Positions 1,400-61,879 of a DNA stretch of 64,000 nucleotides are shown here, one piece after another. The notes beneath the pieces were generated by a model. The model was not told the origin of the DNA, searched no databases, and saw only the letters and a list, made by a program, of their open reading frames with translations. Source of the DNA: Imbricaverruca yamaguchii. Lineage: Eukaryota > Arthropoda > Thecostraca > Neoverrucidae. Each line of letters begins with the position of its first letter. Within the stretch, counting starts at the first letter, position 1. Both the position numbers and the translations under genes were made by a program. The DNA is taken from positions 186,001 to 250,000 of the forward strand of contig JAOTOL010001245.1 of the NCBI GenBank assembly GCA_034440575.1. The letters run 5' to 3'.

Positions 1400-1539
1400 C
1401 AGTGCAGGTAGTCGATGTTCTGCACGAAGCTTTCGAAGGTGCGGCCGATGCCGTTGATGATGTCGCCGAAGCCGATGTCGACCAGGAACGGCAGGAAGTG
1501 TGCGCCGACAGCGTGCATCACCTCACCGGACGGCATCCC
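1400..1539 (-). CDS. Cyclase H-NOX exon 3 with proximal haem histidine
   Basis: Reads GMPSGEVMHAVG, then HFLPFLVDIGFGDIING, then FESFVQNIDYLH, ending CACTG|gtgagc (phase 2). NIDYLH aligns with the haem-ligand helix of beta subunits, and the histidine is present. The acceptor is GGTGGCAG|. From this acceptor the exon starts GGGATG, one G more than needed to stay in frame after exon 2 (ACA G|). The three other copies of this acceptor in the adjoining repeat read GGCAG|GGATG, which is the right phase. Ending the exon with a stop (TGG TGA) is unlikely because a good donor overlaps it. Confidence 0.85.
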
Positions 1540-4500: not shown

Positions 4501-7500
4501 TCACGTACACCGAGAGCGTCACGTACAGTGAGAGCGTCACGTACAGCGAGAGCGTCACGTACAGCGAGAGCGTCACGTACACCGAGAGCGTCACGTACAC
4601 CAAGAGCGTCACGTACAGTGAGAGCGTCACGTACAGCGAGAGCGTCACGTACAGCGAGAGCGTCACGTACACCGAGAGCGTCACGTACAGCGAGAGCGTC
4701 ACGTACACCTAGAGCGTCACGTACAGTGAGAGCGACCGACCCGCCTCTGAGAGCGTCACGTACACCAAGAGCGTCACGTACAGCGAGAGCGTCACGTACA
4801 GTGAGAGCGTCACGTACAGCGAGAGCGACCGACCCGCCTGAGAGCGTCACGTACAGCGAGAGCGTCACGTACAGCGTCACGTACAGCGAGAGCGTCACGT
4901 ACAGCGAGAGCGCCGACCCGCCTCTGAGAGCGTCACGTACAGCGAGAGCGTCACGTACACCGAGAGCGTCACGTACAGGGAGCGTCACGTACACCGAGAG
5001 CGTCACGTACAGTGGAGGCGTCACGTACAGCGAGAGCGTCACGTACAGCGAGAGCGTCACGTACAGTGAGAGCGTCACGTACAGTGAGAGCGTCACGTAC
5101 AGTGAGAGCGTCACGTACAGTGAGAGCGTCACGTACAGTGAGAGCGTCACGTACAGCGAGAGCGTCACGTACAGCGAGAGCGTCACGTACAGTGAGAGCG
5201 TCACGTACAGCGAGAGCGTCACGTACACCGAGAGCGTCACGTACAGCGAGAGCGTCACGTACACCGAGAGCGTCACGTACAGTGAGAGCGTCACGTACAG
5301 CGAGAGCGTCACGTACAGCGAGAGCGTCACGTACAGTGAGAGCGTCACGTACAGTGAGAGCGTCACGTACAGCGAGAGCGTCACGTACAGTGAGAGCGTC
5401 ACGTACAGTGAGAGCGTCACGTACAGTGAGAGCGTCACGTACAGTGAGAGCGTCACGTGAGAGCGTCACGTACAGTGAGAGCGTCACGTACAGCGAGAGC
5501 GTCACGTACAGCGAGGCGTCACGTACACCGAGAGCGTCACGTACAGCGAGAGCGTCACGTACACCGAGAGCGTCACGTACAGTGAGAGCGTCACGTACAG
5601 TGAGAGCGTCACGTACAGTGAGAGCGTCACGTACAGTGAGCGTACAGTGAGAGCGTCACGTGCAGTGAGATCGTCACGTACAGTGAGATCGTCACGTACA
5701 GCGAGAGCGTCACGTACAGTGAGATCGTCACGTACAGTGAGAGCGTCACGTACAGCGAGAGCAACTGCGATCGTCCCAAGTTATTCCTTGCCTATGCTCA
5801 TGCTTGGCACCCTGTTTGAACAGCTTGGTTTGCTTGAACAGCTTGTCTCCCTCGGGAAATCGTTGTGGCTGCCCCTGGGCGTGACATGTTCGCCTTAGAA
5901 CTGTGGCACAACCTCCAGCCTAGGATGTTACCAGCAACTTCAGCATGGGGAGCACTATTCATCTATGACCTCATGTACACTATATGCGTCTCGTCTATGA
6001 TGTCGCACACACAGTTTGTACCACCCACCTTTGATGTCGCACACAGTCGGTATCCTTACCTGTGATGTCACACACAGTCGGTATCTTTACCTGTGATGTC
6101 ACACACAGTCCGTGTCACTCACATGTGACATCACACGTAATCTATACCACCCACCTGTGATGTCACACACAGTCTCTACCAGCCTGAAGAGCACACTGTC
6201 CGCATAGATCTTGTAGTGCAGGAAGTCGGCCTCGTCTAGGATGTCCGGACAGGTGGTCCTGCAAGTCCGCAGTCACCGGGTAACGCTTGTTGTCGGGTAA
6301 CAGTTGCTACCTGGTAACGGTTGTTGCCAGGTAACGCTTGTTGTCGGGAGCAGTTGTTACTCCGTAAGAGGCACTGTCTGATAGCTGAGATTGCTCGTTA
6401 AGTGTGTGAATAGCAAAAGCAACATTCAGTATAATACGGCATGCTGTAGAACATGCCAGATATTTTAACTGGCCTGATGTCTAAAACCTTGGATATATTT
6501 TAAACTAGAATGCCTAGAATGTTAAAGCGTGCTCTGTTGTCACTTTCTCCACTTAAAAATACCACAACTTCGATTTTCCCCACTGATCGGGTGAATGAAT
6601 CGGGGAAGTTGACATGACTTCATGTCAGTAACCTCGACCTTAATAAAACGTCGAGATGCCAGAGTTATTCGTCTTGACGAAAGACCAAAAGACCAGTGGT
6701 CCGGTAGTCCGGTGGTCCGGTGGTTCTGTTGGTCCGGTGGTCCCATGGTCCGGTGGTTCTGTTGGTCCGGTGGTTCTGTTGGTCCGGTGGTTCTGTTGGT
6801 CCGGTGGTTCTGTTGGTCCGGTGGTTCTGTTGGTCCGGTGGTCCCATGGTCCGGTGGTTCTGTTGGTCCGGTGGTCCGGTGGTCCGGTGGTCCGGTGGTC
6901 CGGTGGTTCTGTTGGTCCGGTGGTCCCATGGTCCGGTGGTTCTATTTGCATGTTGGTTCCGTGGTCTCCGGGCGTCCGCTGCTCGGCCGAATACAGCAAC
7001 GACCATCGTGTGAACGGATCCCCGACAGCGGTCGGGGTTCGAGGACGTTCGGGGGCGTTCCGCGCGTTCGGAAACGTTCGGGAGCGTTCGGAGGCGTTCA
7101 GGGCGTTCGGGGGCGTTCTGGAGCGTTCGGGAGCGTTCGGGGGCGTTCGGCGCGTTCAGGGCGTTCGGGGGCGTTCTGGAGCGTTCGGGGACGTTCAGGG
7201 ACATTCGGGAGCGTTCGGGGGCGTTCGGGGGGCGTTCGGCGCATTCGGGAGAGTTCTGAGGGGTTCGGGGCGTTCGGCGCGTTCGGGGCGTTCGGGGGCG
7301 TTCGGCGCGTTCGGGAGCGTTCGGGGACGTTCGGGGGCGTTCGGCGCGTTCGGGAGCGTTCGGGGACGTTCGGGGCGTTCGGGAGCGTTCGTGCGCCGGC
7401 CGAGCATACCGACGCCGTCGCCGCTTGACCGACTCGACTGCCGTTCGCGACGCGTGTTCTCCCTCTTGCGATGACTGTGGCCAGGAGGACGACTGTGGCC

Positions 7501-9774
7501 AGGAGGACGACTGTGGCCAGGAGGACGGCTGTGACCAGGAGGACGGCTGTGGCCAGGAGGACGACTGTGACCAGGAGGACGGCTGTGGCCAGGAGGACGA
7601 CTGTGACCAGGAGGACGGCTGTGACCAGGAGGACGACTGTGACCAGGAGGACGGCTGTGGCCAGGAGGACGGCTGTGGCCAGGAGGACGGCTGTGGCCAG
7701 GAGGACGGCTGTGGACCAGGAGGACGACTGTGGCCAGGAGGACGGTGTGGGGCTGTGGCCAGGAGGACGGCTGTGGCCAGGAGGACGGCTGTGGCCAGGA
7801 GGACGACTGTGGCCAGGAGGACGGCTGTGGCCAGGAGGACGGCTGTGGCCAGGAGGACGACTGTGGCCAGGAGGACGACTGTGGCCAGGAGGACGGCTGT
7901 GGCCAGGAGGACGACTGTGGCCAGGAGGACGACTGTGGCCAGGAGGACGACTGTGGCCAGGAGGACGACTGTGGCCAGGAGGACGGCTGTGGCCAGGAGG
8001 ACGACTGTGGCCAGGAGGACGACTGTGGCCAGGAGGACGACTGTGGCCAGGAGGACGGCTGTGGCCAGGAGGACGACTGTGGCCAGGAGGACGACTGTGA
8101 CCAGGAGGACGGCTGTGGCCAGGAGGACGACTGTGGCCAGGAGGACGGCTGTGGCCAGGAGGACGACTGTGACCAGGAGGACGGCTGTGGCCAGGAGGAC
8201 GGCTGTGGCCAGGAGGACGGCTGTGGCCAGGAGGACGGCTGTGGCCAGGAGGACGACTGTGACCAGGAGGACGGCTGTGGCCAGGAGGACGACTGTGGCC
8301 AGGAGGACGACTGTGGCCAGGAGGACGACTGTGGCCAGGAGGACGACTGTGGCCAGGAGGACGACTGTGGCCAGGAGGACGACTGTGGCCAGGAGGACGA
8401 CTGTGGCCAGGAGGACGACTGTGGCCAGGAGGACGACTGTGGCCAGGAGGACGACTGTGGCCAGGAGGACGACTGTGGCCAGGAGGACGACTGTGGACCA
8501 GGAGGACGACTGTGGCCAGGAGGACGACTGTGCCCAGGAGGACGACTGTGGCCAGGAGGACGACTGTGGCCAGGAGGACGACTGTGGCCAGGAGGACGGC
8601 TGTGGCCAGGAGGACGGCTGTGGCCAGGAGGACGACTGTGACCAGGAGGGAGCCAGGAGGACGACTGTGGCCAGGAGGACGACTGTGGCCAGGAGGACGA
8701 CTGTGGCCAGGAGGACGACTGTGGCCAGGAGGACGACTGTGGCCAGGAGGAAGGAGGAGACTGTGGCCAGGAGGACGACTGTGGCCAGGAGGACGACTGT
8801 GGCCAGGAGGACGACTGTGGCCAGGAGGACGACTGTGGCCAGGAGGACGGCTGTGGCCAGGAGGACGACTGTGGCCAGGAGGACGACTGTGGCCAGGAGG
8901 ACGACTGTGGCCAGGAGGACGACTGTGGCCAGGAGGACGGCTGTGGCAAGGAGGACGACTGTGCCCAAGAGGACGACTGTGGCCAGGAGGACGATTTTGC
9001 CCAGGAGGACGACTGTGGCCAGGAGGACGACTGTGACCAGGAGGACGACTGTGGCCAGGAGGACGGCTGTGGCCAGGAAGACGACTGTGCCCAGGAGGAC
9101 GACTGTGACCAGGAGGATGACTGTGGCCAGGGGGACGACTGTGCCCAGGAGGACGACTGTGCCCAGGAGGACGATTGTGTCCGATTCCAGTCGAAATACG
9201 TCACCGTTTAGCGGCCCGGAACGTATCGAAGCCGGCAGATATCGAGGGATGATCTTGCCACGTCCAGCCGAACCCCTCCACGCCGCACGGCATGCTCAGA
9301 ATTAATCCGTTGGAAACATCGGTTTGTGAATCATTAGAATCATGACACCCACGATATGAAGTTGATCCCGGCGCAGCATGCCGAATGTCATTGCCTACAA
9401 CTTAAAGAGTTGATTTGTGGTATAGATAAAGTGGCTGTGCAGCTATGCGTCAGCTGTATGACAACCGATTAAGCAGACGAGCTGATCATTTGAATCAATT
9501 GCAAAACTGAACGTAGATAGGTTGTTCAAACAAGCGATCGATATATTTTGATCAAAATTCCATACTCGTGATCAGTATGCAGCGGTCGATGGCTGCCCCA
9601 CAATAATACCAGAGCAAGCTTACGCCCCCCCCCCTCCCCGGCGGCAGTGGCCGTGTGGAGTGTTCACACGGCCCACCTTCGGTAGTCATGAAGCACTTAC
9701 AGAACCTTTGACCACGTGTCGTCGCCGTGCTCTTTGATGACCCAAGATCGCAGGCATGCCTGGATGAGGCCGTA
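1400..9774 (-). CDS. Soluble guanylate cyclase beta-type subunit, N-terminal H-NOX part (exons 9701-9774, 6155-6258, 1400-1539)
   Basis: Three minus-strand exons encode the start of an H-NOX (haem-NO/O2-binding) domain, the sensor of soluble guanylate cyclases, which make cGMP from GTP in the cytoplasm. Read in order they give YGLIQACLRSWVIK, then HYKIYADSVLFRL, then FVQNIDYLH. These match the family layout: MYG start, YGxxTW-like GDDTW motif, hydrophobic core, and the LxxLH helix whose histidine binds haem iron. With an initiator Met added upstream that histidine is residue 106; in vertebrate beta1 it is His105. Phases are 0/2, 2/1 and 1/2, but the exon 3 acceptor next to the exon body carries one extra G (see findings). 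The Tyr-x-Ser-x-Arg haem motif, PAS, coiled-coil and cyclase domains must lie left of the window. The sequence resembles the beta2 or atypical insect beta branch; I cannot say which. Confidence 0.85.
1510..1800. repeat. 73-80-bp repeat carrying the exon 3 acceptor and exon start (4 copies)
   Basis: GTGCATCACCTCACCGGACG recurs at 1513, 1589, 1669 and 1742. Each unit holds, on the minus strand, a C-rich tract, GGTGGCAG and the first codons of cyclase exon 3. Copies differ mainly in the length of a G-run and in one C near the acceptor. Confidence 0.9.
2440..4045. repeat. 42-bp minisatellite, ~38 copies
   Basis: Unit contains CCCAACCTTTGGACACTAAC. Because 42 is a multiple of 3, both strands stay open for hundreds of codons, giving a 14-residue Thr/Asn-rich repeat on plus. 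It lies inside the cyclase intron between exons 3 and 2, so I read it as noncoding. The flanks (1801-2439, 4046-4362) hold nothing recognised. Confidence 0.95.
4363..5765. repeat. 18-bp minisatellite, ~75 copies
   Basis: Unit GAGAGCGTCACGTACAGC. It lies in the same cyclase intron and is open on both strands because the period is a multiple of 3. Every unit contains the CRE-like core CGTCA. Confidence 0.95.
5990..6187. repeat. 31-bp repeat carrying the cyclase exon 2 donor
   Basis: About six units with GATGTCACACACAGTC. On the minus strand these read GACTGTGTGTGACATCACAG|GT, i.e. the last codons of exon 2 plus its donor. Downstream copies have CAG|GTAAAG and CAG|GTAAGG, closer to the animal consensus than the exon-proximal CAG|GTGGGT. 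Confidence 0.85.
6155..6258 (-). CDS. Cyclase H-NOX exon 2
   Basis: Acceptor cttgcag|G; 104 nt, phase 2 in and phase 1 out. It encodes (L)TTCPDILDEADF, then LHYKIYADSVLFRL, then VETVCDIT. Spacing and pattern match the H-NOX segment between the GxxTW motif and the GxxF helix residue for residue in length (24 residues from LVETV to GAHF, as I recall for beta2). Confidence 0.85.
6263..6660. other. Intronic sequence with short GGTAACG repeats
   Basis: Between 6278 and 6365 there are about five degenerate copies of a 17-bp unit with GGTAACGCTTGTTG. The rest is AT-richer unique sequence with no recognised feature. Confidence 0.5.
6670..6950. repeat. 17-18-bp repeat (GGTCCGGTGGTTCTGTT)
   Basis: About 16 copies of interleaved GGTCCGGT and GGTTCTGTT motifs in cyclase intron 1. 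Confidence 0.9.
7035..7400. repeat. GCGTTCGGG short-unit array
   Basis: Variable 9-12-bp units built on GCGTTCGGGG, highly CpG-rich, in cyclase intron 1. Confidence 0.9.
7470..9185. repeat. 18-bp minisatellite, ~95 copies
   Basis: Unit GTGGCCAGGAGGACGACT. It fills half of cyclase intron 1 and gives long apparent open frames in several frames (period a multiple of 3). Copies are very similar, suggesting recent homogenisation. Confidence 0.95.
9186..9700. other. Unique intronic sequence upstream of repeat
   Basis: No recognised feature except a C-run at about 9627-9640. By position it is the start of cyclase intron 1, just after the exon ending at 9701. Confidence 0.5.
9701..9774 (-). CDS. 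Cyclase H-NOX exon 1 of the mature domain (YGLIQ...)
   Basis: Acceptor tttctttcag|TAC and donor GTTCT|gtaagtgc; 74 nt, phase 0 in and phase 2 out. It encodes YGLIQACLRSWVIK, then EHGDDTWSKVL. H-NOX proteins start MYG, so the Met must come from an upstream exon ending in ATG|GT. Confidence 0.9.
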
Positions 9775-9779
9775 CTGAA

Positions 9780-10230
9780 AGAAAACACCGACATTTTGTA
9801 TCAGCTATTTTACAGTTGACAGGCTTTCACCATCAGATATTTTAACACAGAGCCGAACACGTGCTATGCACGTGCACGTGCTATATGTCGAGCTGTGCCT
9901 GTTGCCTTGTATTGTCAACGATTACCAATTGAATTGCGGTGTTATTTATATCATAGTAACGCATGCTTGTATTGAATCATTTATTGATCACATCATATTA
10001 ATATTAAGTACGAAATCTAATTAGATATTATTTATAAAGTATGGGCATAATATCAATCATTTATAAAGTATCATGATGTCATAACATGAAAATATCCTAA
10101 TTATAATTTATATTTTAAGTAATATAATTTAAACCCTTGTGAAATGAACGCTCGTGTACGTCCATATCAGCGGCACGGCGACTTTAACGCCCGCTACAGA
10201 TCTATCACCTAATGGGCTGGTGTTAGACCG
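9780..10230. other. AT-rich unique sequence
   Basis: From about 9900 to 10130 the sequence is clearly AT-rich compared with the rest of the window. I see no coding or RNA feature. It would be the intron between the ATG exon and 9774. Confidence 0.5.
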
Positions 10231-10580
10231 AACGCCATTTCACAGCACTCTTACCATAATTGGTTGGTGTTAGATCGTTCACCACATCTGGCTGGTGTTA
10301 GACCGGGCGCCCTTTCCCAGCACTCTCACCATATCTGGTTGGTGTTAGACCGGGCGCCCTTTTCCAGCACTCTCACCATAGCTAGCTGTTTTTAGACAGG
10401 ACGCGCTTTCCCAGCACTCTCACCATATCTGGTTGGTGTTAGACCGGGCGCCCTTTCCCAGCAATCTCACCATATCTGGTTGGTGTTAGACTGGGCGCCA
10501 TCTCCCAGCATTCTCACTATTGCTGGTTGATGTTAGACCGGGCGCCATTTTCCAGCACTCTCACCATAGCTGAAGCTGGT
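10230..10580. repeat. 47-bp repeat with ATG|GTGAGA on minus
   Basis: Units with GGTTGGTGTTAGACCGGGCG. On minus, ATG directly followed by GTGAGA or GTAAGA occurs at 10255, 10330, 10377, 10424, 10471 and 10565; the last five fall on an exact 47-bp register (10518 is a decayed copy). Confidence 0.9.
10565..10567 (-). other. Candidate initiator ATG of the cyclase, at a donor
   Basis: The outermost ATG|GTGAGA of the 47-bp array. An exon ending ATG| has exactly the phase required to join TAC at 9774 and produce MYG. Any of the six ATG copies would work equally well, and the 5' UTR would lie at higher coordinates. Inference only. Confidence 0.35.
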
Positions 10581-10637
10581 ATGTTGCCGCCAGCTGCAGT
10601 GGTCAGCTGTGGCCAGCTGTTTGCCGCAGCAGGTGTC

Positions 10638-12130: not shown

Positions 12131-12599
12131 TGCTTCCGTCACTCATTATGTTCCGTCACTCCTTACGTTGTGATCGCTCCTCCGTATGCTGCTGTCACTT
12201 CTTATTTTCCTGTTAATCCTTATTTTTCTGTGACTTCTTATACTCCTGTCAAGCCTGATTTTCATGTCAGTTCTTACGCACCGCATATGCAGTTCAATGC
12301 ATGAGTGAATGCATTTATGATCAAAGAGCTTTTCAATTGTACCCATTCTGCCCATTTCGTGCAAAGCGTACTGTGGGCAAAGCGTACTATGTTTTGAGAT
12401 GCGGTCACTGACCCACCTGTGGGCCATGTCGTCATTACTGACTTTCTATCATCTGTCACACTGTCGTCTTCTCTGAGAAGAATGCTCCTAAATGATACTC
12501 AAAGCGATCGCAAGCAAATCCCCCATTTTAAGGTCAGATCACTGGCCCGTATGCCACCTCGGTAGTTTGTGGTGTACTGACATTCTCATCACCGTGCTG

Positions 12600-12867
12600 T
12601 CCATGCGGCAGGTTGGCCGAATCAGGAGTGCGAGCGAAGATGAGGCGGTCGGCAGCTACCACTTCAACTGCCGCGTCCATGCAGCGCTGCAGGCGCCGCA
12701 CGGTGCCGCCTGCGAGGCCTCCCTGACTCGCACCAGCAGGGCACCGGGCAACACCACGCCGCCGGTCGGCAGGCTGGCCGCTTTAGCAATCAAGGATAGG
12801 GACGACGTGCGCGCCCTCGTCATCTCCGCCCGCTGTACGACTCCCCAGGGCAGCCTTGGGGTGGGGT
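12600..12867. other. GC-rich non-repetitive stretch open on both strands
   Basis: This 270-bp segment is unlike its repetitive neighbours and open in several frames. Plus has an acceptor-like ATGCGGCAG|GTTGG, then DEAVGSYHFNCRVHAAL; minus has MTRARTSSLSLIAKAASL. Neither strand gave a family I recognise or a convincing donor. It could be a lone exon of an unseen gene or chance. Confidence 0.25.
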
Positions 12868-28975: not shown

Positions 28976-28979
28976 GGAT

Positions 28980-33247: not shown

Positions 33248-33344
33248 CTACCCGGGGCCGGGGTAGAAGTAGGGCGGCGGGCGGTCGTACCCGGTGGAGT
33301 TGGTGCTGTCTGTGTAGCCGGGAGGACCTCCGTTCAGATCCCAC
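33248..33344 (-). CDS. prom: Prominin exon 17 (terminal), PPPY tail
   Basis: Acceptor gacctctgcag|G, phase 2 in. Encodes [15 protein letters not shown], then [16 protein letters not shown] and TAG. PPPY is a WW-domain ligand motif. CCCGG|gtaggt overlaps the stop, so further splicing cannot be excluded. Confidence 0.75.
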
Positions 33345-54300: not shown

Positions 54301-57300
54301 GGAATGGGCGTGGCTGCAAAATCCAGCGTCCTGGAGGAGCCTTCTTAGTCAAAGGTGTGCCACATCTCCACCGGGGTAACAGGCACACTCCCCAGTCACA
54401 TCCCTCTAGATCCGCCAGTGCTAGAAGGAACATACACCGCCATGAAGAGACGGCCGACGTACAGAACGAGCGATGGATCAATGGGCGTCGACAGTAGCCG
54501 TCCATAACTCACCGGCCTGAGCCAGTCGACGGCGCACCTCGGGCACCAGGTCGGCCACCTCGCTCTGGATCCGCTCGGACAGCTGGTCGAACGACCGCTT
54601 GCCGGCCAGCACCTCTCTCTCGATTCCGTTCTCAATCAGAGCGGAGATCTCGCGCGCCGTCCGGGTCACGTCGGGCAGCTGCCGGGTCACGAAGGTTGCG
54701 GTCGGGTCACACTCAGGTCACACTCAGGTCAGTTATGGCTGCATGGATACTGTAGTCAGGATGGGACATATCATTGTGAGATAAAACAAGATAAGTTCAG
54801 ATAAAACAGGTCATTTCAAGTCGGGTTAGAAATCGGGCAACACCACGATCAAGAAGCAGTCATGGCCAGGTCAAAGCCATGGTTGCTCAAAGCCATGCCG
54901 GGTCAAAGACGCAAAGGAGATGACTTCCGTCGTGACAGGTGAAGCTAGGTCGTGGCTGCTGTCAAGCAAGGTGACGGCTGCTGGCGGGCACTCGTGGATC
55001 AAATGTGCGTCACTTCAATAACCGTCACTTATTTAATTAGTGGAGAGGCGACTTTGCAATCGATCTGGCCACGATGAAAACCAGTTAGAATGTCTGAGTG
55101 TGTCATTGTAAACTACAAAGGCATGGGGCAACCTAGCAGTGTTGGCCCGGAGCCTGAAGCAGGCACCTAAAGGTGCCTGCTTTTCTGCGTGACAAATATC
55201 TACGCAGCTTCCTTTCACATTATCCGCACCGTTGTACAAACGCTGCCTTCTATTATTTGTGCTCATTCATTGCATTTTTCGTATAGCTTCGACGTCACTT
55301 CGGGCGATTTTGTCATTACTCGTAAATTTGACGATCAGTCGGCAACACTGGGCGCGAATGATCAAGACTGGTCGAAGCGCGCAAAAGCACAGGGAACTTA
55401 GTCGGCAATGCACTAGAGACGTCTATGATTGGCATCGTAAACACCTCGACTGCAAAAACAGACACTGCCAGCAGATGGTGTCACAAATTGACACCGCCAG
55501 CAAACGGTGTCACAGACTGACACCGCCAGGAGACGGTGTCACAGACTGACACCGCCAGGAGACGGTGTCACAGACTGACACCGCCAACAGACGTTGTCAC
55601 AGACTGACACCGCCAGCAGACGGTGTCACAGACTGACACCGCTAGCAGACGGTGTCAGAGACGGACACCGCCAGCAGTCGGTGCCATAACGCCGGCATCG
55701 CTGATCGTGTCAACTGCGTCTTAACGGGGACGGGCGGTTCACCTATGAGTCATGAGTCTGACCGTCAACAACGCTGCAACAGAGAGCGAGAGCGACCGGC
55801 TGAATCAGATAAATGCCGAGCTGCACATATACAGTAACCGCGCCGTGGCTGGAGAGGACCTTTGGTAGATCCATGTCCTTCGAATTGAAACAGCATCGCG
55901 GTGGTGGTGGATTTGTGCTTTAGGGCGCGTCAGCTACGCCGGTCATTTTGCGCCCATGAAATACACCCAGCATTTTGGGTTCAGAACATCCAGTATGCTT
56001 CACAGGCATTATACTAAAGTTGCTGTATTTAATGAGTTTAGAATGACAACCCATACCCTACGTGCCATAAGAGATGTATTTAGGAACAAGTAATATTTGC
56101 ATAATTATCACTGAAGTGTAAGCGACTTACGGCAGCAAACGCTCCAAGGTTTGAAATTCTCCAGATTGTTGTTCCTATACATTTCTTAGCGGAAGATGGT
56201 CGAGTAAATTGGTACAAGGCAACAGCGATGCATTAAATATTCAACAAAGCTGAATGTCCAAATGAAAATATTTTGCTGCTAAACCTGGGCATTCCTTTAT
56301 AAACTACTGACATACAAGCTCCTGACGCACTGAGCTACCGATAAGCTGCTAATAGAAGCCACTGTAACACATGCGTAAACAGACAAAGCTCAACACTAAG
56401 CGTAGCTACATCGGACGACCAAAACCGGCACCACCAAACCAATGAACTGGCACCACCAAACCAATGAGCTTGCACCGCCAAACCGCCGGACTAAAACACA
56501 GAACGATACGACACCTGGACCCCACCCCTCCGCCACGATAAAAAGGACAGACAATCACGTGACCGACTCCACTACGACTCGCGTGACCACGTGTAGCGAA
56601 ACATTGGCGCGCGGCGTCGTCATGGCAACGGGCAACAGTGGGCGTGCGGCAGGCGTGCGCCTCATGCCTCGCCGCACAGCCGGTACGTTACCTTGGGGAT
56701 GAGGTCGTTTGAGAGCCACTGAAAACACATTGTTAGCGAGGGGTTAGTCGGAGAGGCGGTGTTATACAGCGACAGCCGACAGGAGACAGAACCATCCATA
56801 GAAGATCCTGACAGCGCCACCCGCCACCGATAGTACGGCATGTAGGCAAGGATCACGGCGTAATGGACGCTTAAAGTGACGAGTATCGGCGCCGCACCAA
56901 GTGAAAGATTCGCGACATCCTCCCCCTTCCGCAGCCCACAACTCCATCATTGTAAACACGCGGTATCAAAATCAGCGAACTGTAAGTAATAGGTATGAAC
57001 GTCAATATAGCAAAGTAAAAGGATCCATATCAATCCGGTATCTCCTCACCTTGAAAACTATATTGGGACCACAAGAAGATATCCAAAAAAGCCGAAGCTC
57101 GAGAACCAGCAAAAAAGTGTAAGTCAGGAGACAGGAAGTACCAGCATGCACCAAAACCATCGCCCACAACATTTTTTTGTAATCGGGTTGTGGCATGATA
57201 ATTGCATCACCCTTCGGCCTATTCGGGCTGGGGTAGAGCAAAGTTCACCAAAGTGTCTGCATCTCTGCCTGGTCACAGAAACGAAGGACGCTTCCGGAAG

Positions 57301-60300
57301 CGCGGTTAGCAGTGGCGGATCCAGGGGGAGACCGGGGTCCCCGTCCCCGCGGTGGATATGCGCGCCCCTCCAGCATGCACGGCGGTGACCTCGTCAGCGA
57401 CCTGGAACCTGTTCCCCTCACGCCCTCCCGACCTTCGCTCTACACTCCGCAGGCGTCAACTATTGGCAGCGATGCTGTGCTCCACGGTCCGTACAGAACA
57501 CAGGGCTACAGAACACAGGGCTACAGAACACAGGGCTACAGAACACAGGGCTACAGAACACAGGGCTACAGAACATAGGGCTACAGAACACAGGGCTACA
57601 GAACACAGGGCTACAGAACACAGGGTTACAGAACACAGGGCTATTCAATATGCACTGCGAATCTTCACTTTGCCATATTCGGATCCTCCATAAGATGAAT
57701 TGACGATCACAAAAATCACGAATTACCTACTCCCTGCAATTTCTGTACCTGTTGCCCTTCACATTTCCACACCTCTCCCAATGGTAATTGCTCATATTAC
57801 CAATCCACATATATAATCTTGTTTTCTTTGTCCATCCTCGCTGGATTTCTCTCAAATGATGTGCTTCACAGCACAGCACGCCGTCCGCCGCACAACCTCG
57901 CTTGAGATGAGCTTCTGATGCCCAATACTCAACCAGTCAGCCACATCAATTCACCTCCGTCGCTGCCATACCACCTCCGTCGCGTTCTCCCACTCCCAGC
58001 GCACACCCCCCTGCACCTACTCCCCTTTTCCCACCACCTACTCTGCCTCCCCTGGCGGTACATACACACACACACACACAGACAGACACACACATACACA
58101 CACACACGCACGTCTTGACACAGCCGTACCCACCTGGCGGAACTCGTTCTGCACGGCCAGCTGACTGAGGTTGTACTCGCGCGCCAGCTGGCGGCACGTC
58201 GGCGAACTGCAGAGCAGCAGGAGCGTCGACAGCTCGGACTGTACGCCCTGCAGGCCGACCGTCAGCTGGTCGGCGCGCACCTGCAGCTGCTGAGTCTGCT
58301 CACCGATCACCTGCCGGGGGGCACAGGTCACCTGCGGGGTCACAGGTCACCACAGGTGCCAGCACGGCGGGCCAGCTCCTCGACCTCAAGACATTCGTTG
58401 CCTGAACCCAGGAACGTTTCGAGTTTTTCCCGATCGGAAATTGACACAAATCGTGGCACAAGCTTGATTTGCCGCTCCCCATCCCCCAATTCGAAGGCAT
58501 GGCAATGTCGGTGCCGGGCAGTGTCGGTGCCGGTCATCAACGGGGTCGTCACGAGCTTCTTCTGGACCAGCGGACACAAACCAACTTCTCAGCAGCTGTC
58601 CTGCTGATAAATGTGAAATAACGGTGAATTGCGTGAACGCCGAATGGAGATAAATCACCACTTACTCAGCGTGACCAACAGCCATGTTAGTTGGTGAGCA
58701 TGTACCAACAAAGATAAGGATAGAGGTCATGGGACAGCGTGAACCACCACCGACATGAGATAGTCGGCCGGTACAGCACTGCTGGTCAGCATAAAAGATC
58801 TGCTGGAAGACACACAGATACACGACGGGTTGCTAGTGAGCGTGCGTCCACCCGGGGACGACACAGCGTCTCCAGCCGGCAGGTACGCACGTTCAGGTCG
58901 CGCCGGATGTCCCGCAGGCCCTCGGCGATGGCGGCCAGGTCGTCCACGGCCACGGCACGAGAGATGTTGGCCAGCTTCGCCTTGACGCGGTCTCCGCACT
59001 CTGCCGCGTGGAGGTGGAGTGGTCAGGTCGTACCTCGTGCAGCACTAAGACGCAGCCCGTCTGGAGGTGGAGTGGTCAGGTCGTACCTCGTGCAGCACTA
59101 AGACGCAGCCCGTCTGGAGGTGGAGTGGTCAGGTCGTACCTCGTGCAGCACTAAGACGCAGCCCGTCTGGAGGTGGAGTGGTCAGGTCGTACCTCGTGCA
59201 GCACTAAACAGCCGTCTCGTGCAGCACTAAGACGCAGCCCGTCTGGAGGTGGAGTGGTCAGGTCGTACCTCGTGCAGCACTAAGACGCAGCCCGTCTGGA
59301 GGTGGAGTGGTCAGGTCGTACCTCGTGCAGCACTAAGACGCAGCCCGTCTGGAGGTGGAGTGGTCAGGTCGTACCTCGTGAGCACTAAAGTAGCCTCTGG
59401 GGTGAGCTAACGTGCAGCACTAAGACGCAGCCCGTCTGGAGGTGGAGTGGTCAGGTCGTACCTCGTGCAGCACTAAGACGCACCCCGTCTGGAGGTGGAG
59501 TGGTCAGGTCGTACCTCGTGCAGCACTAAGACGCAGCCCGTCTGGAGGTGGAGTGGTCAGGTCGTACCTCGTGCAGCACTAAGACGCAGCCCGTCTGGAG
59601 GTGGAGTGGTCAGGTCGTACCTCGTGCAGCACTAAGACGCAGCCCGTCTGGAGGTGGAGTGGTCAGGTCGTACCTCGTGCAGAAAGCACGCAGCCCGTCT
59701 GGAGGTGGAGTGGTCAGGTCGTACCTCGTGCAGCACTAAGACGCAGCCCGTCTGGAGGTGGAGTGGTCAGGTCGTACCTCGTGCAGCACTAAGACGCAGC
59801 CCGTCTGGAGGTGGAGTGGTCAGGTCGTACCTCGTGCAGCACTAACACGCAGCCCGTCTGGAGGTGGAGTGGTCAGGTCGTACCTCGTGCAGCACTAACA
59901 CGCAGCCCGTCTGGAGGTGGAGTGGTCAGGTCGTACCTCGTGCAGCACTAACACGCAGCCCGTCTGGAGGTGGAGTGGTCAGGTCGTACCTCGTGCAGCA
60001 CTAAGACGCAGCCCGTCTGGAGGTGGAGTGGTCAGGTCGTACCTCGTGCAGCACTAAGACGCACCCCGTCTGGAGGTGGAGTGGTCAGGTCGTACCTCGT
60101 GCAGCACTAAGACGCACCCGTTTAGTTCGTGCAGCACTAAGACGCAGCCCGTCTGGAGGTGGAGTGGTCAGGTCGTACCTCGTGCAGCACTAAGACGCAG
60201 CCCGTCTGGAGGTGGAGTGGTCAGGTCGTACCTCGTGCAGCACTAAGACGCAGCCCGTCTGGAGGTGGAGTGGTCAGGTCGTACCTCGTGCAGCACTAAA

Positions 60301-61879
60301 ACTAAGACGCAGCCCGTCTGGAGGTGGAGTGGTCAGGTCGTACCTCGTGCAGCACTAAGACGCAGCCCGTCTGGAGGTGGAGTGGTCAGGTCGTACCTCG
60401 TGCAGCACTAAGACGCAGCCCGTCTGGAGGTGGAGTGGTCAGGTCGTACCTCGTGCAGCACTAAGACGCAGCCCGTCTGGAGGTGGAGTGGTCAGGTCGT
60501 ACCTCGTGCAGCACTAAGACGCAGCCCGTCTGCAGGTCAGCTCATGGCTCGCGGGCTGCGTGTTATCGCTTTACGCTTTGTCAAACGCTGGACACAATCA
60601 ACTGAGTCCATGCCAGGTGACGTGCACCTTCACGCTACAGATTATGCGTTCCGTGGTCGTAGGTAGGTCATGTAAGGCTACATCAGGTTACAGCGGGTCA
60701 AGATTCACAAACAGTTGGTTGGTTAATTGAGTTTTAGGGCGCATCGACCAGGTTTGGCCATTTAGCGCCCATCACATACAGAGACGAACGATAAAATAAA
60801 ATACGTAAAATAGAATATCAAGTGAGGTTAAATCACCTACGGGTGCGCCGGTACGCGCGTGGGCACCCGGCGAACGGGAATAGCCGGGTACCCGGGACGG
60901 AGACAGATGAACGGGGGATGAAATTGAAGATGGACGGGGGAAGATGAACGGGGAGGGCCCATGAGGCCCTGCCCATTCATCCCCACGAATAGTCGCGGAG
61001 CCCGTTGAGCCCCTCATGGTGCTGTCCCCTCAAACGCGCTAACGTCGCTGCCGCCGCCGCCAAATATGACGCATGTGCGGACTGGGTAAAATCGAGCCGC
61101 ACAGAGGATGAAGCGCAATAATGAAAACGTCCCACAATTTGCATAGTCGAGCTATTCACTTGCCTTCGGATATTCCTTCCCCTTGCCAGTCCAGTACCGC
61201 CACCCGTCACCCGTCTCTCCCTCCACAAATCACTCAAATCTTCCCTCTGCACCCCACCCCAAGGGCACACCGCGACCGCCCGTCTCCCGTTCTTCTACAA
61301 AAACAACCACCCATCACTTCTGTCTCGCCCCGCGTCAAGAGCACACACCGACCGCTCATCTCCCGCCCCACCCCAAAAACATCCCAATCCCTCCTCTCCC
61401 GCCCAGCCTCCAAAAACATACATCGACCGATCCTCTTCCGCTCCTCAAAACCACACTCCTCCCGCTCCTCGCTGAGGCACACTCTGACGTCCCTTCCTCA
61501 CAATCCACAACAGCACATTCCTCTTCTACTCCTCCCCAAAAGAGCTTACCCAACGCCACTTTCCCATCCATACGCAAGAGGGCATCCATACACAAGATAT
61601 GCAAAGCACATGGCGTGGCAGTAGCCTTGTGCTGCGCGGAGGATGGCGACGCACCCTTTCGGCCGTCTCTCAACGCTAAACAGCACATTGTAATTTGTTG
61701 GGGGCTAAGTCAGGGCTTGTACCCCCATCCCCAGGGTAGGTGACAGATCTGGACGCAACAGCTCGAATACAATGGCATTCAGCAGCAAAAGGTCCCGCGA
61801 GTTTGTACTCACTGTTGAGCGAGTCGTCCAGTACTATCTGCAACTCCTTGTAGTTGTCCACCAGGAGGTGGTTTACCTC
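33248..61879 (-). CDS. prom: Prominin (CD133-family) pentaspan glycoprotein, 17 exons, 5' end missing
   Basis: Seventeen minus-strand exons join without any frame break into 2229 nt (742 residues plus TAG). Order: 61813-61879, 58891-59000, 58134-58310, 56692-56718, 54513-54678, 51456-51576, 50221-50373, 48949-49161, 47262-47394, 46859-46963, 44969-45148, 42925-43059, 42165-42323, 41194-41315, 38267-38317, 34564-34776, 33248-33344. Layout matches prominins: coiled-coil-like extracellular loop 2, TM3, Cys-rich short loop with [12 protein letters not shown]4, loop 3 with [15 protein letters not shown]5 ([14 protein letters not shown]) and a cytoplasmic tail. Nine N-glycosylation sequons fall in the loops. 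Prominins bind cholesterol and mark membrane protrusions such as microvilli and photoreceptor membranes. The signal peptide, first extracellular domain, TM1 and TM2 are not in 61.9-64 kb and are presumed beyond the window. Several splice sites lie inside tandem repeats. Confidence 0.92.
33630..34575. repeat. 53-56-bp repeat carrying the exon 16 donor (~15 copies)
   Basis: On minus each unit reads GGCTCCTCCGCT|gtcagtat, then a pyrimidine-rich stretch CTCTCCTCCGCCCCAG, then CACAGCAACTGGGTTCAAG. That is the end of exon 16, its donor, and an acceptor-like site. Copies left of 33910 are decayed, and a SINE interrupts them at 33699-33846. Confidence 0.9.
33699..33846 (-). mobile_element. tRNA-Val-like SINE (family V)
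   Basis: Minus-strand head with AGTAGTCTGGGGGTAAGTTA, a damaged B-box and the family body (ATTGGCGACGCTGCATGACT). Inserted into the decayed end of the exon 16 donor array. Confidence 0.8.
34564..34776 (-). CDS. prom: Prominin exon 16, cytoplasmic tail
   Basis: Acceptor cactgtttcag|C, donor CCGCT|gtcagt, phase 2/2. Basic, Gly/Ser/Pro-rich tail: [46 protein letters not shown]. Reading through the donor stays open into the repeat array, giving a long Ser/Pro-rich alternative tail. Confidence 0.85.
34777..36470. other. Prominin intron 15, right of exon 16: unique part
   Basis: No exon, RNA gene or transposon recognised. A run of CTACCAAATCG-like words at 36150-36275 is a weak repeat. Confidence 0.5.
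36475..37265. repeat. ~33-bp polypurine array
   Basis: Variants of AGCAGAAGCAGAGCAGAAGG over 790 bp with strong purine bias on plus. The prominin transcript would therefore carry a long CUUCUGCUCUG-type pyrimidine tract in intron 15. Confidence 0.95.
37270..38266. other. Prominin intron 15, left of exon 15
   Basis: Unique sequence with no recognised feature. A (CAA/GCAA) stretch lies near 37498-37520. Confidence 0.4.
38267..38317 (-). CDS. prom: Prominin exon 15, post-TM5 tail
   Basis: Acceptor ccaccgttttcag|C, donor GCGAA|gtaagt, 51 nt, phase 2/2. Encodes [16 protein letters not shown], tyrosine/acidic-rich like the start of prominin tails. It could be a skippable cassette because length and phase allow it. 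Confidence 0.8.
38558..38654 (-). mobile_element. 5'-truncated SINE with target-site duplication
   Basis: SINE body only (ATTGGCGACGCTACATGACT and the CAACGGTCGATGTG part), without the tRNA head. Flanked by a perfect 14-bp direct repeat AACAACCAGAACTC at 38544-38557 and 38655-38668, the expected footprint of LINE-driven insertion. Confidence 0.85.
39290..39445. repeat. GACATGACCTGACATG degenerate array
   Basis: Irregular 10-20-bp units of TGACATGACC/TGACCTGACA in prominin intron 14. Confidence 0.8.
39766..39936 (-). mobile_element. tRNA-Lys-like SINE (family K)
   Basis: On minus: GCGGTAGCTCAGTTGGTAGA, GGACTCTTGATC (CTT anticodon position as in tRNA-Lys), B-box GTGGGTTAGAATC, then a body with TGAGAGGTTAGTGACGCTAT and a TTGAATGCGTCGTAA end. 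B-box mutated. Confidence 0.8.
39937..41193. other. Prominin intron 14 remainder
   Basis: Contains a copy of the dispersed GGGC...TCATTTAGCGC element at about 40110-40175. Otherwise no recognised gene or repeat. Confidence 0.4.
41194..41315 (-). CDS. prom: Prominin exon 14, TM5
   Basis: Acceptor cccaccccag|AAC, donor AACAA|gtgagt, phase 0/2. [30 protein letters not shown], then [10 protein letters not shown]. Single membrane span followed by a basic stop-transfer and an acidic/Tyr stretch, as in prominins. Confidence 0.9.
41316..42164. other. Prominin intron 13
   Basis: Unique sequence, nothing recognised. Confidence 0.5.
42165..42323 (-). CDS. prom: Prominin exon 13, end of extracellular loop 3
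   Basis: Acceptor cgccgtcgtcag|CTG, donor CCGTTC|gtgagt, 159 nt, phase 0/0. [20 protein letters not shown], then [20 protein letters not shown], then VIYPF. The two cysteines and an NGT sequon match the membrane-proximal part of loop 3. Confidence 0.9.
42281..42420. repeat. Perfect 70-bp tandem duplication over the exon 13 acceptor
   Basis: 42281-42350 and 42351-42420 are identical. The unit spans the first 43 nt of exon 13, the acceptor and 27 nt of intron. Using the outer acceptor would shift frame and soon hit a stop. Confidence 0.95.
42421..42924. other. Prominin intron 12
   Basis: Short and unique, with two related GTGACACTAGC / ACTCGCTGGCGAC words near 42473-42590. No other feature. 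Confidence 0.4.
42925..43059 (-). CDS. prom: Prominin exon 12, loop 3
   Basis: Acceptor ctggccggcag|AAC, donor ATCGAG|gtcagt, 135 nt, phase 0/0. [20 protein letters not shown], then [16 protein letters not shown]. Three N-glycosylation sequons in 16 residues. Confidence 0.88.
43060..43510. other. Prominin intron 11, AT-rich part
   Basis: AT-rich (ATTATT runs at 43195-43370), contrasting with the GC-rich surroundings. No gene. Confidence 0.5.
43511..43870. repeat. 12-bp array CTGGTGGAGCCG, 30 copies
   Basis: Almost perfect copies, open in all frames (Leu-Val-Glu-Pro or Ala-Pro repeats). On minus, each unit reads CGGCTCCACCAG, so it offers a CAG acceptor-like end every 12 nt in intron 11. Confidence 0.97.
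44090..45012. repeat. 43-44-bp repeat carrying the exon 11 donor, ~20 copies
   Basis: On minus, each unit is GTGGACGAGATGACCGAGAT then CATCGTCACGCTGCGG|GTAAGTG, i.e. the last 36 nt of exon 11 plus its donor. Some units lack CGTGACG or carry an extra C. The copy at 44969-45012 is joined to the exon body. Confidence 0.95.
44969..45148 (-). CDS. prom: Prominin exon 11, loop 3
   Basis: Acceptor tctgacccccag|CTG, donor CTGCGG|gtaagt, 180 nt, phase 0/0. [20 protein letters not shown], then [20 protein letters not shown], ending [13 protein letters not shown]. The LPP...LRN segment matches prominin loop 3. Alternative downstream donors in the array would shift frame by 43/44 nt. Confidence 0.92.
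45159..45205. repeat. AGGTC pentamer run
   Basis: About 9 copies of AGGTC, starting 11 nt upstream of the exon 11 acceptor on the transcribed strand. Confidence 0.9.
45430..45970. repeat. 12-bp array (CCTGTGAGCAGG), ~45 copies
   Basis: Variants CAGGCCTGTCAG, GGTCTGTGAGCA and GGTCTGTGAGCG. On minus it gives CCTGCTCACAGA, an acceptor-like CACAG in every unit of intron 10. Confidence 0.95.
45975..46671. other. Prominin intron 10 remainder
   Basis: Unique sequence with a short duplicated ACGATCGTGAATGTGAGCAT-like word near 46023 and 46084. No gene. Confidence 0.4.
46672..46842 (-). mobile_element. tRNA-derived SINE (family K)
   Basis: On minus: GCGGCAGCTGGGTCGGTGCG, TTGGACTCCTGATAGC, B-box GGTTCGAATCC, then GTTGAGCCCACCCGCC and a TTGAATCTGTCGTAAGAG end. 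It lies 17 nt from prominin exon 10. Confidence 0.8.
46859..46963 (-). CDS. prom: Prominin exon 10, loop 3
   Basis: Acceptor gggccgccag|GTT, donor CTTACG|gtgagc, 105 nt, phase 0/0. [20 protein letters not shown], then [15 protein letters not shown]. The INYTAF sequon and pattern match the segment of vertebrate prominins with a Met-Asn-Tyr core. Confidence 0.9.
47262..47394 (-). CDS. prom: Prominin exon 9, loop 3 start, with GC donor
   Basis: Acceptor gccatcgcag|G, 133 nt, phase 2/0. [20 protein letters not shown], then [20 protein letters not shown]. The C..N.SIY.VLQL motif is typical of the loop after TM4. The only donor giving phase 0 is ATACAG|gccagt, a GC-AG intron. Confidence 0.88.
47405..47590. 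repeat. ~17-20-bp AGGTCAAGGTCACTTACA array
   Basis: About 10 units. On minus the unit is GTAAGTGACCTTGACCTGTT, so each holds a good donor-like GTAAGT, and the last unit supplies the pyrimidine tract of the exon 9 acceptor. Confidence 0.9.
47752..47917 (-). mobile_element. tRNA-derived SINE (family K)
   Basis: On minus: GTAGGTCAGTCGGTAGGGCG, B-box GAGTTCGAATCC, GACCACCCGCGACCAATGGG and the TTGAATGCGTCGTAAT end. Confidence 0.8.
48150..48312 (-). mobile_element. tRNA-Val-like SINE (family V), well preserved
   Basis: On minus: GGACGAGTGGTCTAGGAGTA, CGTCTCACAATCGAAAGG, GGTTCGAGTCTC, then CGATCATTCGTCGTGAGAG and the CGATGTGTCGAAAACCAAT-like end. Confidence 0.85.
48475..48937. repeat. ~18-bp CTGCCTACACCCCCACCG array abutting the exon 8 donor
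   Basis: About 25 copies. On minus it is GGTGGGGGTGTAGGCAG, G-rich and potentially quadruplex-forming, beginning within 12 nt of the exon 8 donor. Confidence 0.95.
48949..49161 (-). CDS. prom: Prominin exon 8, TM4 and loop 3 start
   Basis: Acceptor cctcccgcag|C, donor ATCGG|gtcagt, 213 nt, phase 2/2. [37 protein letters not shown], then [18 protein letters not shown]. One strong membrane span followed by the loop with an NGT sequon. Confidence 0.92.
49195..49740. repeat. 12-bp GGGAACGGTGGC array, ~45 copies
   Basis: On minus: CCGCCACCGTTC. It starts 34 nt upstream of the exon 8 acceptor. The remainder of intron 7 to 50220 shows CAACAGCAACA words and nothing else. Confidence 0.95.
50221..50373 (-). 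CDS. prom: Prominin exon 7, TM3 and intracellular loop
   Basis: Acceptor acgtcggcag|G, donor CTCAG|gtgggac, 153 nt, phase 2/2. [32 protein letters not shown], then [20 protein letters not shown]3 followed by the Cys-containing loop is a strong prominin signature. Three further acceptors upstream (50454, 50535, 50616) continue the same open frame. Confidence 0.93.
50302..50650. repeat. 81-bp in-frame repeat of the TM3 segment with its acceptor, 4 copies
   Basis: Acceptors fall at 50373, 50454, 50535 and 50616, exactly 81 bp apart. Each unit codes [18 protein letters not shown] followed by [13 protein letters not shown] residues; the latter is intron in the inner copy. The frame is open across all four. 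Confidence 0.95.
50651..51169. other. Prominin intron 6, unique part
   Basis: No recognised feature. Confidence 0.5.
51170..51382. repeat. CAGAGA / CAGAGG hexamer array
   Basis: About 35 hexamers, purine-rich on plus, so the transcript carries a long UCUCUG pyrimidine tract in intron 6, downstream of exon 6. Confidence 0.95.
51456..51576 (-). CDS. prom: Prominin exon 6, end of loop 2
   Basis: Acceptor gctctttttcag|GC, donor CTTCAG|gtcagt, 121 nt, phase 1/2. [20 protein letters not shown], then [19 protein letters not shown], directly before TM3. Confidence 0.88.
51577..54512. other. Prominin intron 5
   Basis: Mostly unique. 53180-53340 (C-run, GCGCCCCTCC, GATCCGCCCCC) and 54380-54425 (GATCCGCCAGTGCTAG) resemble ends of DNA-transposon fragments with CAGTGGCGGATC-type termini. 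No coding evidence in the short frames. Confidence 0.4.
54513..54678 (-). CDS. prom: Prominin exon 5, loop 2
   Basis: Acceptor gacccggcag|CTG, donor GGCCG|gtgagt, 166 nt, phase 0/1. [20 protein letters not shown], then [20 protein letters not shown], then [15 protein letters not shown]. Helical heptad character as in prominin loop 2. Confidence 0.9.
54679..55480. other. Prominin intron 4, right of exon 5
   Basis: Starts with a small repeat GGTCACACTCA x2 next to the exon 5 acceptor, with CAAAGCCATG words at 54870-54900. Otherwise unique. Confidence 0.5.
55480..55680. repeat. 29-bp repeat with palindromic ends, 7 copies
   Basis: Unit GACACCGCCAGCAGACGGTG then TCACAGACT. GACACCG and CGGTGTC within each unit are inverted and could form hairpins. 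Confidence 0.92.
55681..56691. other. Prominin intron 4 remainder
   Basis: Holds a copy of the dispersed TTTAGGGCGCG...TTTGCGCCCAT element at 55910-55965. Otherwise unique and AT-richer. Confidence 0.4.
56692..56718 (-). CDS. prom: Prominin exon 4, 27-nt micro-exon
   Basis: Acceptor atgtgttttcag|TGG, donor CCCAAG|gtaacg. Encodes WLSNDLIPK, phase 0/0, so it is removable without frame change. It fits between NEFRQ and LPDVTR, where prominins have a short linker. Confidence 0.65.
56719..57490. other. Prominin intron 3, part
   Basis: 57306-57370 contains GCAGTGGCGGATCCAGGGGG, a likely DNA-transposon terminus. Nothing else recognised. Confidence 0.4.
57494..57642. repeat. 15-bp GAACACAGGGCTACA array, 10 copies
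   Basis: Near-perfect copies in prominin intron 3. Confidence 0.95.
58061..58112. repeat. CA microsatellite next to the exon 3 donor
   Basis: (CA)n with CAGACA interruptions. On minus a UG-rich run starting about 22 nt after the exon 3 donor, a position where UG/CELF-type elements can influence splicing. Confidence 0.9.
58134..58310 (-). CDS. prom: Prominin exon 3, loop 2
   Basis: Acceptor ccccccggcag|GTG, donor CGCCAG|gtgggt, 177 nt, phase 0/0. [39 protein letters not shown], then [20 protein letters not shown]. The paired cysteines with CSSPTC correspond to the conserved loop 2 disulphide region. A second acceptor 21 nt upstream (exon start 58331) would add VTCAPRQ in frame. Confidence 0.92.
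58311..58890. other. Prominin intron 2
   Basis: Short intron; GACCTGTG words duplicated near the exon 3 acceptor. No other feature. Confidence 0.5.
58891..59000 (-). CDS. prom: Prominin exon 2 of this window, loop 2
   Basis: Acceptor ccacgcggcag|AG, donor CTGAAC|gtgcgt, 110 nt, phase 1/0. [18 protein letters not shown], then [18 protein letters not shown]. One NIS sequon; amphipathic helix pattern as in loop 2. Confidence 0.9.
59008..60535. repeat. 53-bp repeat, ~27 copies, each with a micro-exon-like core
   Basis: On minus each unit reads CTGACCACTCCACCTCCAG, then 27 nt (ACGGGCTGCGTCTTAGTGCT plus GCACGAG), then GTACGAC. AG and GT therefore bracket a 27-nt segment that is open in the frame linking exons 1 and 2. 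The array ends 7 nt from exon 2's acceptor and supplies its upstream tract. Confidence 0.93.
60536..61812. other. Prominin intron 1, right part
   Basis: Contains a dispersed TTTTAGGGCGC...TTTAGCGCCCAT element at 60717-60775 and a C-rich low-complexity stretch at 61180-61560 with CACACCGACCGC/TCTCCCGCCC words. No exon recognised. Confidence 0.4.
61813..61879 (-). CDS. prom: Prominin first exon in window, loop 2 start
   Basis: Acceptor tgacgttttcag|GAG, donor CTCAACA|gtgagt, 67 nt, phase 0/1. [20 protein letters not shown] then LN. It corresponds to the start of extracellular loop 2 after TM2. Upstream exons are not visible. Confidence 0.85.

Follow-up and report, generated by a model that had tools for sequence, protein, structure and literature searches.

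Tandem repeats over splice junctions of a barnacle resemble amphioxus mirages and occur in moderate, partly replicated excess

The closest described counterparts of the repeats that we report here are the 'mirages' of amphioxus, in which a tandem unit extends across the exon/intron boundary in the globin genes BflGb6 and BflGb9 and in Adh3 (PMC3087553). Mirage units are 10-160 bp long, are found at either end of an exon and carry splice signals in many, not all, of their copies; the genes are spliced normally, and the arrays show allelic or somatic length instability (PMC3087553). In lancelet PGBD5, tandem repeats of 60 and 108 bp lie over splice sites, and troponin C presents a similar case (PMC3902484). 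Human segmental duplications contain variable internal tandem repeats with units of 30 bp on average, some of them located at an exon-intron boundary (PMC2812944). According to a 2012 review, tandem genomic duplication is the only mechanism of intron gain shown in vivo, and the tandem duplication of exon segments bearing AGGT is a supported route (PMC3443670). Published work on barnacle genomes covers repeat content, along with the extreme diversity of Balanus improvisus (PMC8270832, PMC8917513, PMC9582164); the passages available from these three papers make no mention of junction repeats, nor does the portion at hand of an earthworm paper with intronic minisatellites describe them (PMC12783039). 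A literature search that covered few subscription papers returned no arthropod or barnacle case and no count against chance. The phenomenon itself was known before, from amphioxus mirages and human boundary minisatellites; within the scope of this search, its presence in an arthropod and the count against chance appear to be new.

We analysed a 64,000-nucleotide stretch of the Imbricaverruca yamaguchii genome, hereafter the window, together with held-out loci of the same assembly. As in amphioxus mirages, the units of the barnacle arrays span the boundary (6 clear cases and 1 weak among 40 junctions of the window, 8 of 128 in the held-out loci), both donors and acceptors are hit, and most copies keep the splice signal. 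Mirage copies are homogenised, the array edges less so, and the barnacle copies are near-identical. Unlike mirages, the barnacle arrays affect several unrelated genes, contain up to 20 copies of one donor and have been counted against chance. The PGBD5 repeats of lancelets differ in being imperfect duplications in one gene, for which the available passages give no placement statistics (PMC3902484). Human variable minisatellites likewise alter exon and intron structure, some of them at the boundary, whereas they belong to recent gene duplicates, lie half in coding sequence and have been proposed to yield novel introns; the passages at hand describe no array in which a working splice site is present many times over (PMC2812944). 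Intron gain by AGGT tandem duplication also copies splice-signal sequence (PMC3443670), but there the two copies become the donor and the acceptor of a new intron, whereas in the barnacle one side of an old intron is multiplied. Ordinary intronic minisatellites share unit sizes, copy similarity and local birth with the barnacle arrays, from which they are set apart by the content of the barnacle unit, an exon edge plus a predicted working splice site.

The window corresponds to C1012:186001-250000 of a 767-Mb assembly of 1430 contigs. Two genes were recognised in it, both on the minus strand: a soluble guanylate cyclase at 1.4-9.8 kb and a prominin at 33.3-61.9 kb, for which we modelled 20 exons (3 and 17, respectively) with 40 splice junctions. 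A protein search with the prominin gave five matches, three of them from Amphibalanus amphitrite (best 75% identity) and one from Pollicipes pollicipes, and the joined exons 1-17 read through 741 codons in frame with no stop. Between exons 2 and 17 the Amphibalanus orthologue aligns through all 15 junctions, and no copy of the repeat units is present in it in the protein alignment. Orthologue alignment is the basis of exons 2 (58891-59000), 3 (58134-58310), 4 (a 27-nt microexon, 56692-56718), 5 (54513-54678), 6 (51456-51576), 7 (50221-50373), 8 (48949-49161), 9 (47262-47394), 10 (46859-46963), 11 (44969-45148), 12 (42925-43059), 13 (42165-42323), 14 (41194-41315), 15 (38267-38317), 16 (34564-34776) and 17 (33252-33344), unlike exon 1 of the window (61813-61879), which is placed by tblastn and phase. 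Taken singly, exon pieces hit Pfam PF05478 without reaching its curated cut-off (exons 3 and 7, and exon 13 just below it); a PF05478 search also contributed to exon 8. The donor of exon 9 (47262) is GC, not GT, and is backed by phase and by the orthologue. The exons of 27 nt (56692-56718) and 51 nt (38267-38317) are present in Amphibalanus record P0001 and missing from record P0002, and are possibly alternative exons.

The cyclase borders, drawn from weaker homology and AG/GT signals, are less firm than those of prominin. Exon 1 of the window (9701-9774; H-NOX) is a weak tblastn match to an approximate human sGC beta1 query with AG/GT borders; exon 2 (6155-6258) has a frame that is H-NOX-like by eye, its donor at 6155 lying within an array; exon 3 (1400-1539), found by a PDB search, covers about residues 60-105 of the H-NOX domain. 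The phase of exon 3 is off by one G relative to exon 2, in a homopolymer run (within 1509-1560), so that its border is less sure; the one-base misfit may be an assembly error. Upstream decoy copies at this exon have a phase-fitting length. The remaining cyclase gene, sought in 50 kb of further DNA, matched the approximate human query poorly. Between the two genes (10-33 kb), a codon-bias scan returned a few weak segments, the best of which (12579-12833, plus strand) scored 20.4, about the level of the weaker true exons.

Several other elements lie in the window. A piece of LINE-type reverse transcriptase with a weak RVT_1 match is located at 62792-63274 on the minus strand. The neighbouring segment 62390-62713, also on the minus strand, has no Pfam match; we take it to resemble the C-terminal region of LINE-type elements. 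By eye, a minus-strand element recurs at about 39770-39940, 48160-48300, 46670-46830, 38560-38660 and 33700-33830, and is perhaps a tRNA-derived SINE, a tRNA-promoter-like head being discernible in one copy; ARAGORN reported no tRNA gene in the window. Within a prominin intron, an 805-bp array (36471-37275) is made up of 35-bp units in which AGAAGCAGAGCAG is abundant and contains long open frames.

Tandem Repeats Finder (TRF) produced 120 rows on the window, which were merged into 67 arrays covering 36% of it. Seven of the 40 junctions, four acceptors and three donors, lie within a tandem array (six unmistakably, one weakly), and eight further junctions lie at most 40 nt from one. The units of the former consist of an exon edge with its donor or acceptor, repeated up to 20 times. 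At the donor of cyclase exon 2, a 31-32 bp array (6006-6181) of five units reaches 27 nt into the exon and keeps three extra AG|GT donors, one having been lost, and at the acceptor of cyclase exon 3, 3.6 units of 73 bp (1509-1784) reach 31 nt into the exon and carry four copies of the acceptor. In prominin, the acceptor of exon 7 is covered by four 81-bp units of 98% similarity (50319-50642; 55 exonic nt) with four acceptors, every copy being in frame; the donor of exon 11 by 21 units of 44 bp (44093-45007; 39 exonic nt) with 20 intact donors; the acceptor of exon 13 by a perfect (100%) 70-bp duplication of 2.1 copies (42281-42425; 43 exonic nt) with two acceptors; and the donor of exon 16 by 12.6 units of 54-55 bp (33883-34577; 14 exonic nt) with 12 intact donors and one more beyond the array at 33685. 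The weak case is a 19-bp array of 2.2 copies (58307-58351) that takes in 4 exonic nt at the acceptor of exon 3. In each array it is a terminal copy that adjoins the exon body; the copies are near-identical, with scattered substitutions and indels.

Arrays close to a junction comprise a 53-bp array 9 nt ahead of the acceptor of prominin exon 2 (59009-60537), an (AC)n array 23 nt past the donor of exon 3 (58060-58111), a 12-bp array 36 nt ahead of the acceptor of exon 8 (49197-49725), a 19-bp array 11 nt past the donor of the same exon (48470-48938), a 21-bp array 10 nt ahead of the acceptor of exon 9 (47404-47591) and a 5-bp array 14 nt ahead of the acceptor of exon 11 (45162-45206). An earlier note on this DNA had named these six, along with the six unmistakable junctions within arrays, and TRF bears out every one of them. 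To its list we add the weak acceptor of prominin exon 3, the acceptor of cyclase exon 2, 18 nt from a 17-bp array (6276-6348), and the acceptor of prominin exon 5, with an array of 11 bp x 2.5 located 27 nt ahead of it (54705-54731). A local-alignment scan that does not use TRF found unmistakable extra copies at six of the 40 junctions, with scores between 25 and 50 where controls reached 13.5 at most; these are the same six strong cases, separated from the rest by a clear gap. The acceptors of prominin exons 3 (11.5), 2 (12.0), 9 (11.0) and 1 (9.5) rise barely above their own controls, the donor of exon 8 scores 12.5, a value reached by 2.9% of its controls, and at the other 29 of the 40 junctions the scan for decayed junction duplications stayed at background. 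Splice-junction tandem repeats are confirmed in the window.

In raw coordinates no excess is seen: arrays occupy 37.5% of non-exon bases, and at exon edges 7 bases out of 40 fall in one, so that the share is lower at junctions. We do not use this as the main test because it counts each copy of an array, whereas a junction that lies in an array must have been contained in the founding unit, so that each array should be counted once. In the main null, every array was therefore contracted to one unit and the contracted arrays were shifted around the window. Under this null, 1.49 of the 40 junctions would be expected inside an array and 7 were observed (P 0.0009); within 40 nt of one, the expectation is 2.43 and the observed count 8 (P 0.0026). 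With exon 1 omitted (38 junctions), the excess of inside cases holds at TRF score thresholds of 50, 100 and 200 (P 0.0008 to 0.0044), and that of near cases is weaker at the same thresholds (P 0.0018 to 0.06). Random placement of each array in its own intron gave 7 of 34 inside against 1.78 (P 0.0012). The density of array units climbs with GC content, and junctions are GC-rich (0.61); the GC-matched expectation for the window is 2.2-2.3 against the 7 observed (P 0.007 with 2.2 expected). The window was chosen for its repeat pattern, which makes its P values optimistic, and for this reason we tested held-out loci.

The held-out set consists of 13 regions that were selected for their genes and without regard to repeats; they amount to 227 kb of the 767-Mb assembly and contain 128 junctions and 127 arrays. 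It includes a prominin paralogue (prominin-2), the N-terminal region of the window gene (prominin-1), clathrin heavy chain, ATP1A, part of ATP6V1A, VCP, parts of five proteasome ATPase loci (the PSMC5-like one without a junction), EEF2 and an EEF2-like gene. Exon borders were set by a spliced-alignment script, except for one prominin-2 donor placed by hand from sequence; introns with weak models (VCP 722/718, ATP6V1A 137/142) were excluded before counting, as were gaps in exon chains and pairs without a valid junction. The prominin-1 N-terminal region shares 4 kb with the window, and the acceptor of exon 1 consequently belongs to both sets. Eight of the 128 junctions lie inside an array against 2.52 expected (P 0.0041) and six near one against 2.91 (P 0.07), the two classes together giving P 0.001; at TRF scores of at least 100, seven lie inside against 2.09 (P 0.0058). 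Without the prominins, 4 of 98 lie inside against 1.46 (P 0.056; P 0.007 for inside and near together), or 4 against 1.23 at scores of at least 100 (P 0.034). GC matching at score 50 leaves 8 against 4.4 for all held-out loci, which is not significant (P 0.08), and 4 against 0.98 for the non-prominin loci (P 0.018); pooled GC rates mix loci with very different array density, and we treat neither of these two P values as final.

The inside cases are distributed over prominin-2 (4/24), clathrin (1/20), ATP6V1A (1/14) and PSMC2 (2/6); no junction lies inside an array in ATP1A (0/18), VCP (0/10), PSMC1 (0/8), PSMC4 (0/4), PSMC6 (0/6), the prominin-1 N-terminal region (0/6), EEF2 (0/10) or the EEF2-like gene (0/2). 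They include four prominin-2 donors, an ATP6V1A acceptor (67 bp x 11), a PSMC2 donor (108 bp x 2.5) and a clathrin acceptor (47 bp x 2.1), and a PSMC4 array lies near, 36 nt from its junction. The held-out inside arrays reach 2-44 nt into the exon, and a reach of only 2-4 nt is seen in 2 of these 8 cases and in 1 of the 7 of the window. No unit with a score of at least 100 lies wholly within a modelled exon body of the held-out loci. Array coverage varies by locus, from 1% in EEF2 (L039-L040) and 3% in clathrin (L018-L020) to 36% in the window. The junction excess is not confined to the window, GC content accounts for part of it, and we describe it as moderate and partly replicated. The earlier proposal that junction duplication is genome-wide gains from its reappearance in held-out genes and is weakened by the pooled GC matching (P 0.08) and by the extent of the sample, 227 kb of 767 Mb.

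A position profile was compiled from the window and part of the held-out loci (156 junctions, one counted twice). Contracted units take up 8% of the last 10 exon bases and 10-12% of the first 30 intron bases; their share falls to 0.8-1.9% at 90-169 nt and is up again, at 1.6-3.8%, at 170-209 nt. In this pool, which includes the window, 15 of 156 junctions lie inside arrays against a GC-matched 6.3 (P 0.002). Away from exons, strong donor-like motifs show no enrichment in arrays (2/160), from which we conclude that a donor motif alone does not attract arrays. Acceptor-like motifs far from exons fall in arrays in 26 of 669 cases (3.9% against a background of 2.3%), and a small motif effect may exist at acceptors.

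The earlier note also suggested that the repeats lengthen introns and multiply splice sites, and here the window agrees with it: introns are made longer by the arrays, and four junctions together have 35 extra splice sites, one of them just past its array. The motif is kept in the copies at exon 11 (20 donors, in units picked there by motif, against 21 copies by TRF), exon 7 (4 acceptors), cyclase exon 3 (4 acceptors) and exon 13 (2 acceptors), and the donor is lost in 1 of 13 copies of the exon 16 array and in 1 of 5 at cyclase exon 2. A different suggestion, that junction duplication feeds an ongoing gain of introns, is not supported. An intron born by tandem duplication would have donor and acceptor surroundings that are copies of one another; in 76 introns, the similarity between the two surroundings never exceeded the 99.9th percentile of mismatched donor-acceptor pairs, and the best value, that of a prominin-2 intron, is matched by 1.2% of such pairs. 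For all 11 prominin introns compared, the position in the protein differs from that in the paralogue by no more than 2 residues, one of these 11 positions having the extra 27-nt exon in prominin-1; because the positions are common to both genes, we conclude that the introns are older than the arrays. The arrays mostly differ between the paralogues at common junctions, which indicates that they are younger than the introns and turn over: donors of exons 9, 10 and 14 carry them in prominin-2 and the acceptor of exon 7 in the window gene, and the donor of exon 16 alone has an array in both genes, built on a 54-bp unit in the window gene and on one of 36 or 214 bp in the paralogue. This comparison extends to junctions modelled in both genes, which excludes the acceptor of exon 3, the donor of exon 11 and the acceptor of exon 13. 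Nor does AGGT, on which the suggestion drew, clearly stand out at repeated junctions: AG|GT is present at 3 of the 7 that lie in arrays and at 7 of the 33 others. As for the word ongoing, its one basis is that the copies are near-identical; the 70-bp duplication at exon 13 is recent, given that its copies are perfect, and we also count the 81-bp units of exon 7, at 98%, among recent copies.

From these observations, we consider it likely that the arrays are mirage-type minisatellites founded by tandem duplication in place, with junctions favoured over random founding. A segment of about 20-170 bp across an exon-intron border would be duplicated in tandem where it stands, perhaps by slippage or microhomology-mediated copying; the copy beside the exon body would be kept by selection as the splice site, further copies would go to the intron, and the mRNA would be unchanged if the exon-proximal site is used. 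The array would then grow and be homogenised as any minisatellite, as its near-identical copies suggest. Intact decoy donors or acceptors are carried along in the arrays. When the exon 11 unit, the one unit searched genome-wide, was compared with the 767-Mb assembly in a search that skips very common words, all 8 matches fell in C1012:230100-231007; since the unit matches its own locus alone, the array was probably born in place rather than brought by a mobile element. Arrays at junctions exceed random founding by a factor of 1.8 to 4.7, which varies with the junction set and the control used (40 window and 128 held-out junctions). The candidate causes of this excess are more births at junctions, GC content and slower loss of exon-anchored arrays.

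Of the other readings, the one that fits the same counts as well as preferential birth does is differential retention, by which arrays would be born anywhere and those at exon edges lost more slowly, because deletions there would take the exon away, while a conserved copy re-seeds homogeneity. The peak on the junction and the position of the exon-bordering copy at the end of its array agree with it; arrays at most 40 nt away that are free of exon sequence are nevertheless also in excess (8 against 2.4 in the window; 6 against 2.9, P 0.07, in the held-out loci), and exon anchoring does not directly explain these since they do not touch the exon. We regard retention as a possibility, on balance an unlikely one. 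Somewhat less probable still is that chance in a repeat-rich and GC-rich region produced the pattern with no junction preference, arrays in exon bodies being purged and those at edges tolerated. The 36% coverage of the window by arrays, the climb of unit density with GC, the high GC content of junctions (0.61) and the non-significant pooled held-out excess after GC matching (P 0.08) all speak for chance, but it sits poorly with the GC-matched pool of 15/156 against 6.3 (P 0.002, window included), the GC-matched non-prominin loci (4 against 0.98, P 0.018), a sharp peak that extends no further than about 80 nt from the junction and the clathrin region, where coverage is 3% and yet one of five arrays lies over a junction and another abuts one.

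The decoy sites might instead be used to produce variant proteins, such as a prominin with a repeated transmembrane segment. The three decoys of exon 7 are all in frame (81-nt units) and, like 9 of the 12 at exon 16 (some of them frame-shifted), open to the end of the model; in silico, however, premature stops follow the use of 17 of the 19 decoys at exon 11 and of the single one at exon 13, and the Amphibalanus orthologue is without the copies, which makes such a role very improbable. A route to new introns, which the earlier note mentions as a known proposal, is a shade more improbable again: tandem duplication of AGGT exon segments is a supported mechanism (PMC3443670), the amphioxus authors proposed intron gain from mirages (PMC3087553) and the human study ties exon-intron boundary repeats to novel introns (PMC2812944), but against this stand the 0 of 76 introns with similar ends, the shared location of all 11 compared prominin introns in the two paralogues and the observation, by eye, that real splice sites of a single kind are multiplied in any one array of the window. 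Least credible of all is that the assembler made the copies or their numbers. Assembly of tandem arrays is difficult, the amphioxus draft genome contained a misassembled mirage (PMC3087553) and the homopolymer of cyclase exon 3 has its one-G frame offset; the copies, however, differ by scattered substitutions and indels, and the pattern recurs at loci on five contigs (C1012, C1345, C1241, C857 and C1261).

A stronger proposition makes the junctions of barnacle genes genuine hot spots at which minisatellites are born, through a process tied to transcription, splicing or exon-edge chromatin, with the same process at work in lancelets; we hold this to be doubtful, to the same degree as chance. 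Should the excess fail a whole-genome test, the arrays would be an ordinary by-product of a minisatellite-rich genome. What the present analysis does is to carry mirages from lancelets to an arthropod and to count them against chance, and it brings to light a natural array in which up to 20 identical donors follow one another, offering a direct test of the spliceosome's choice of site. A duplication bias focused on junctions, if true, would link DNA mutation to gene structure, and if junctions are indeed hot spots of birth, they would form a mutational class of their own that is constantly making decoy splice sites.
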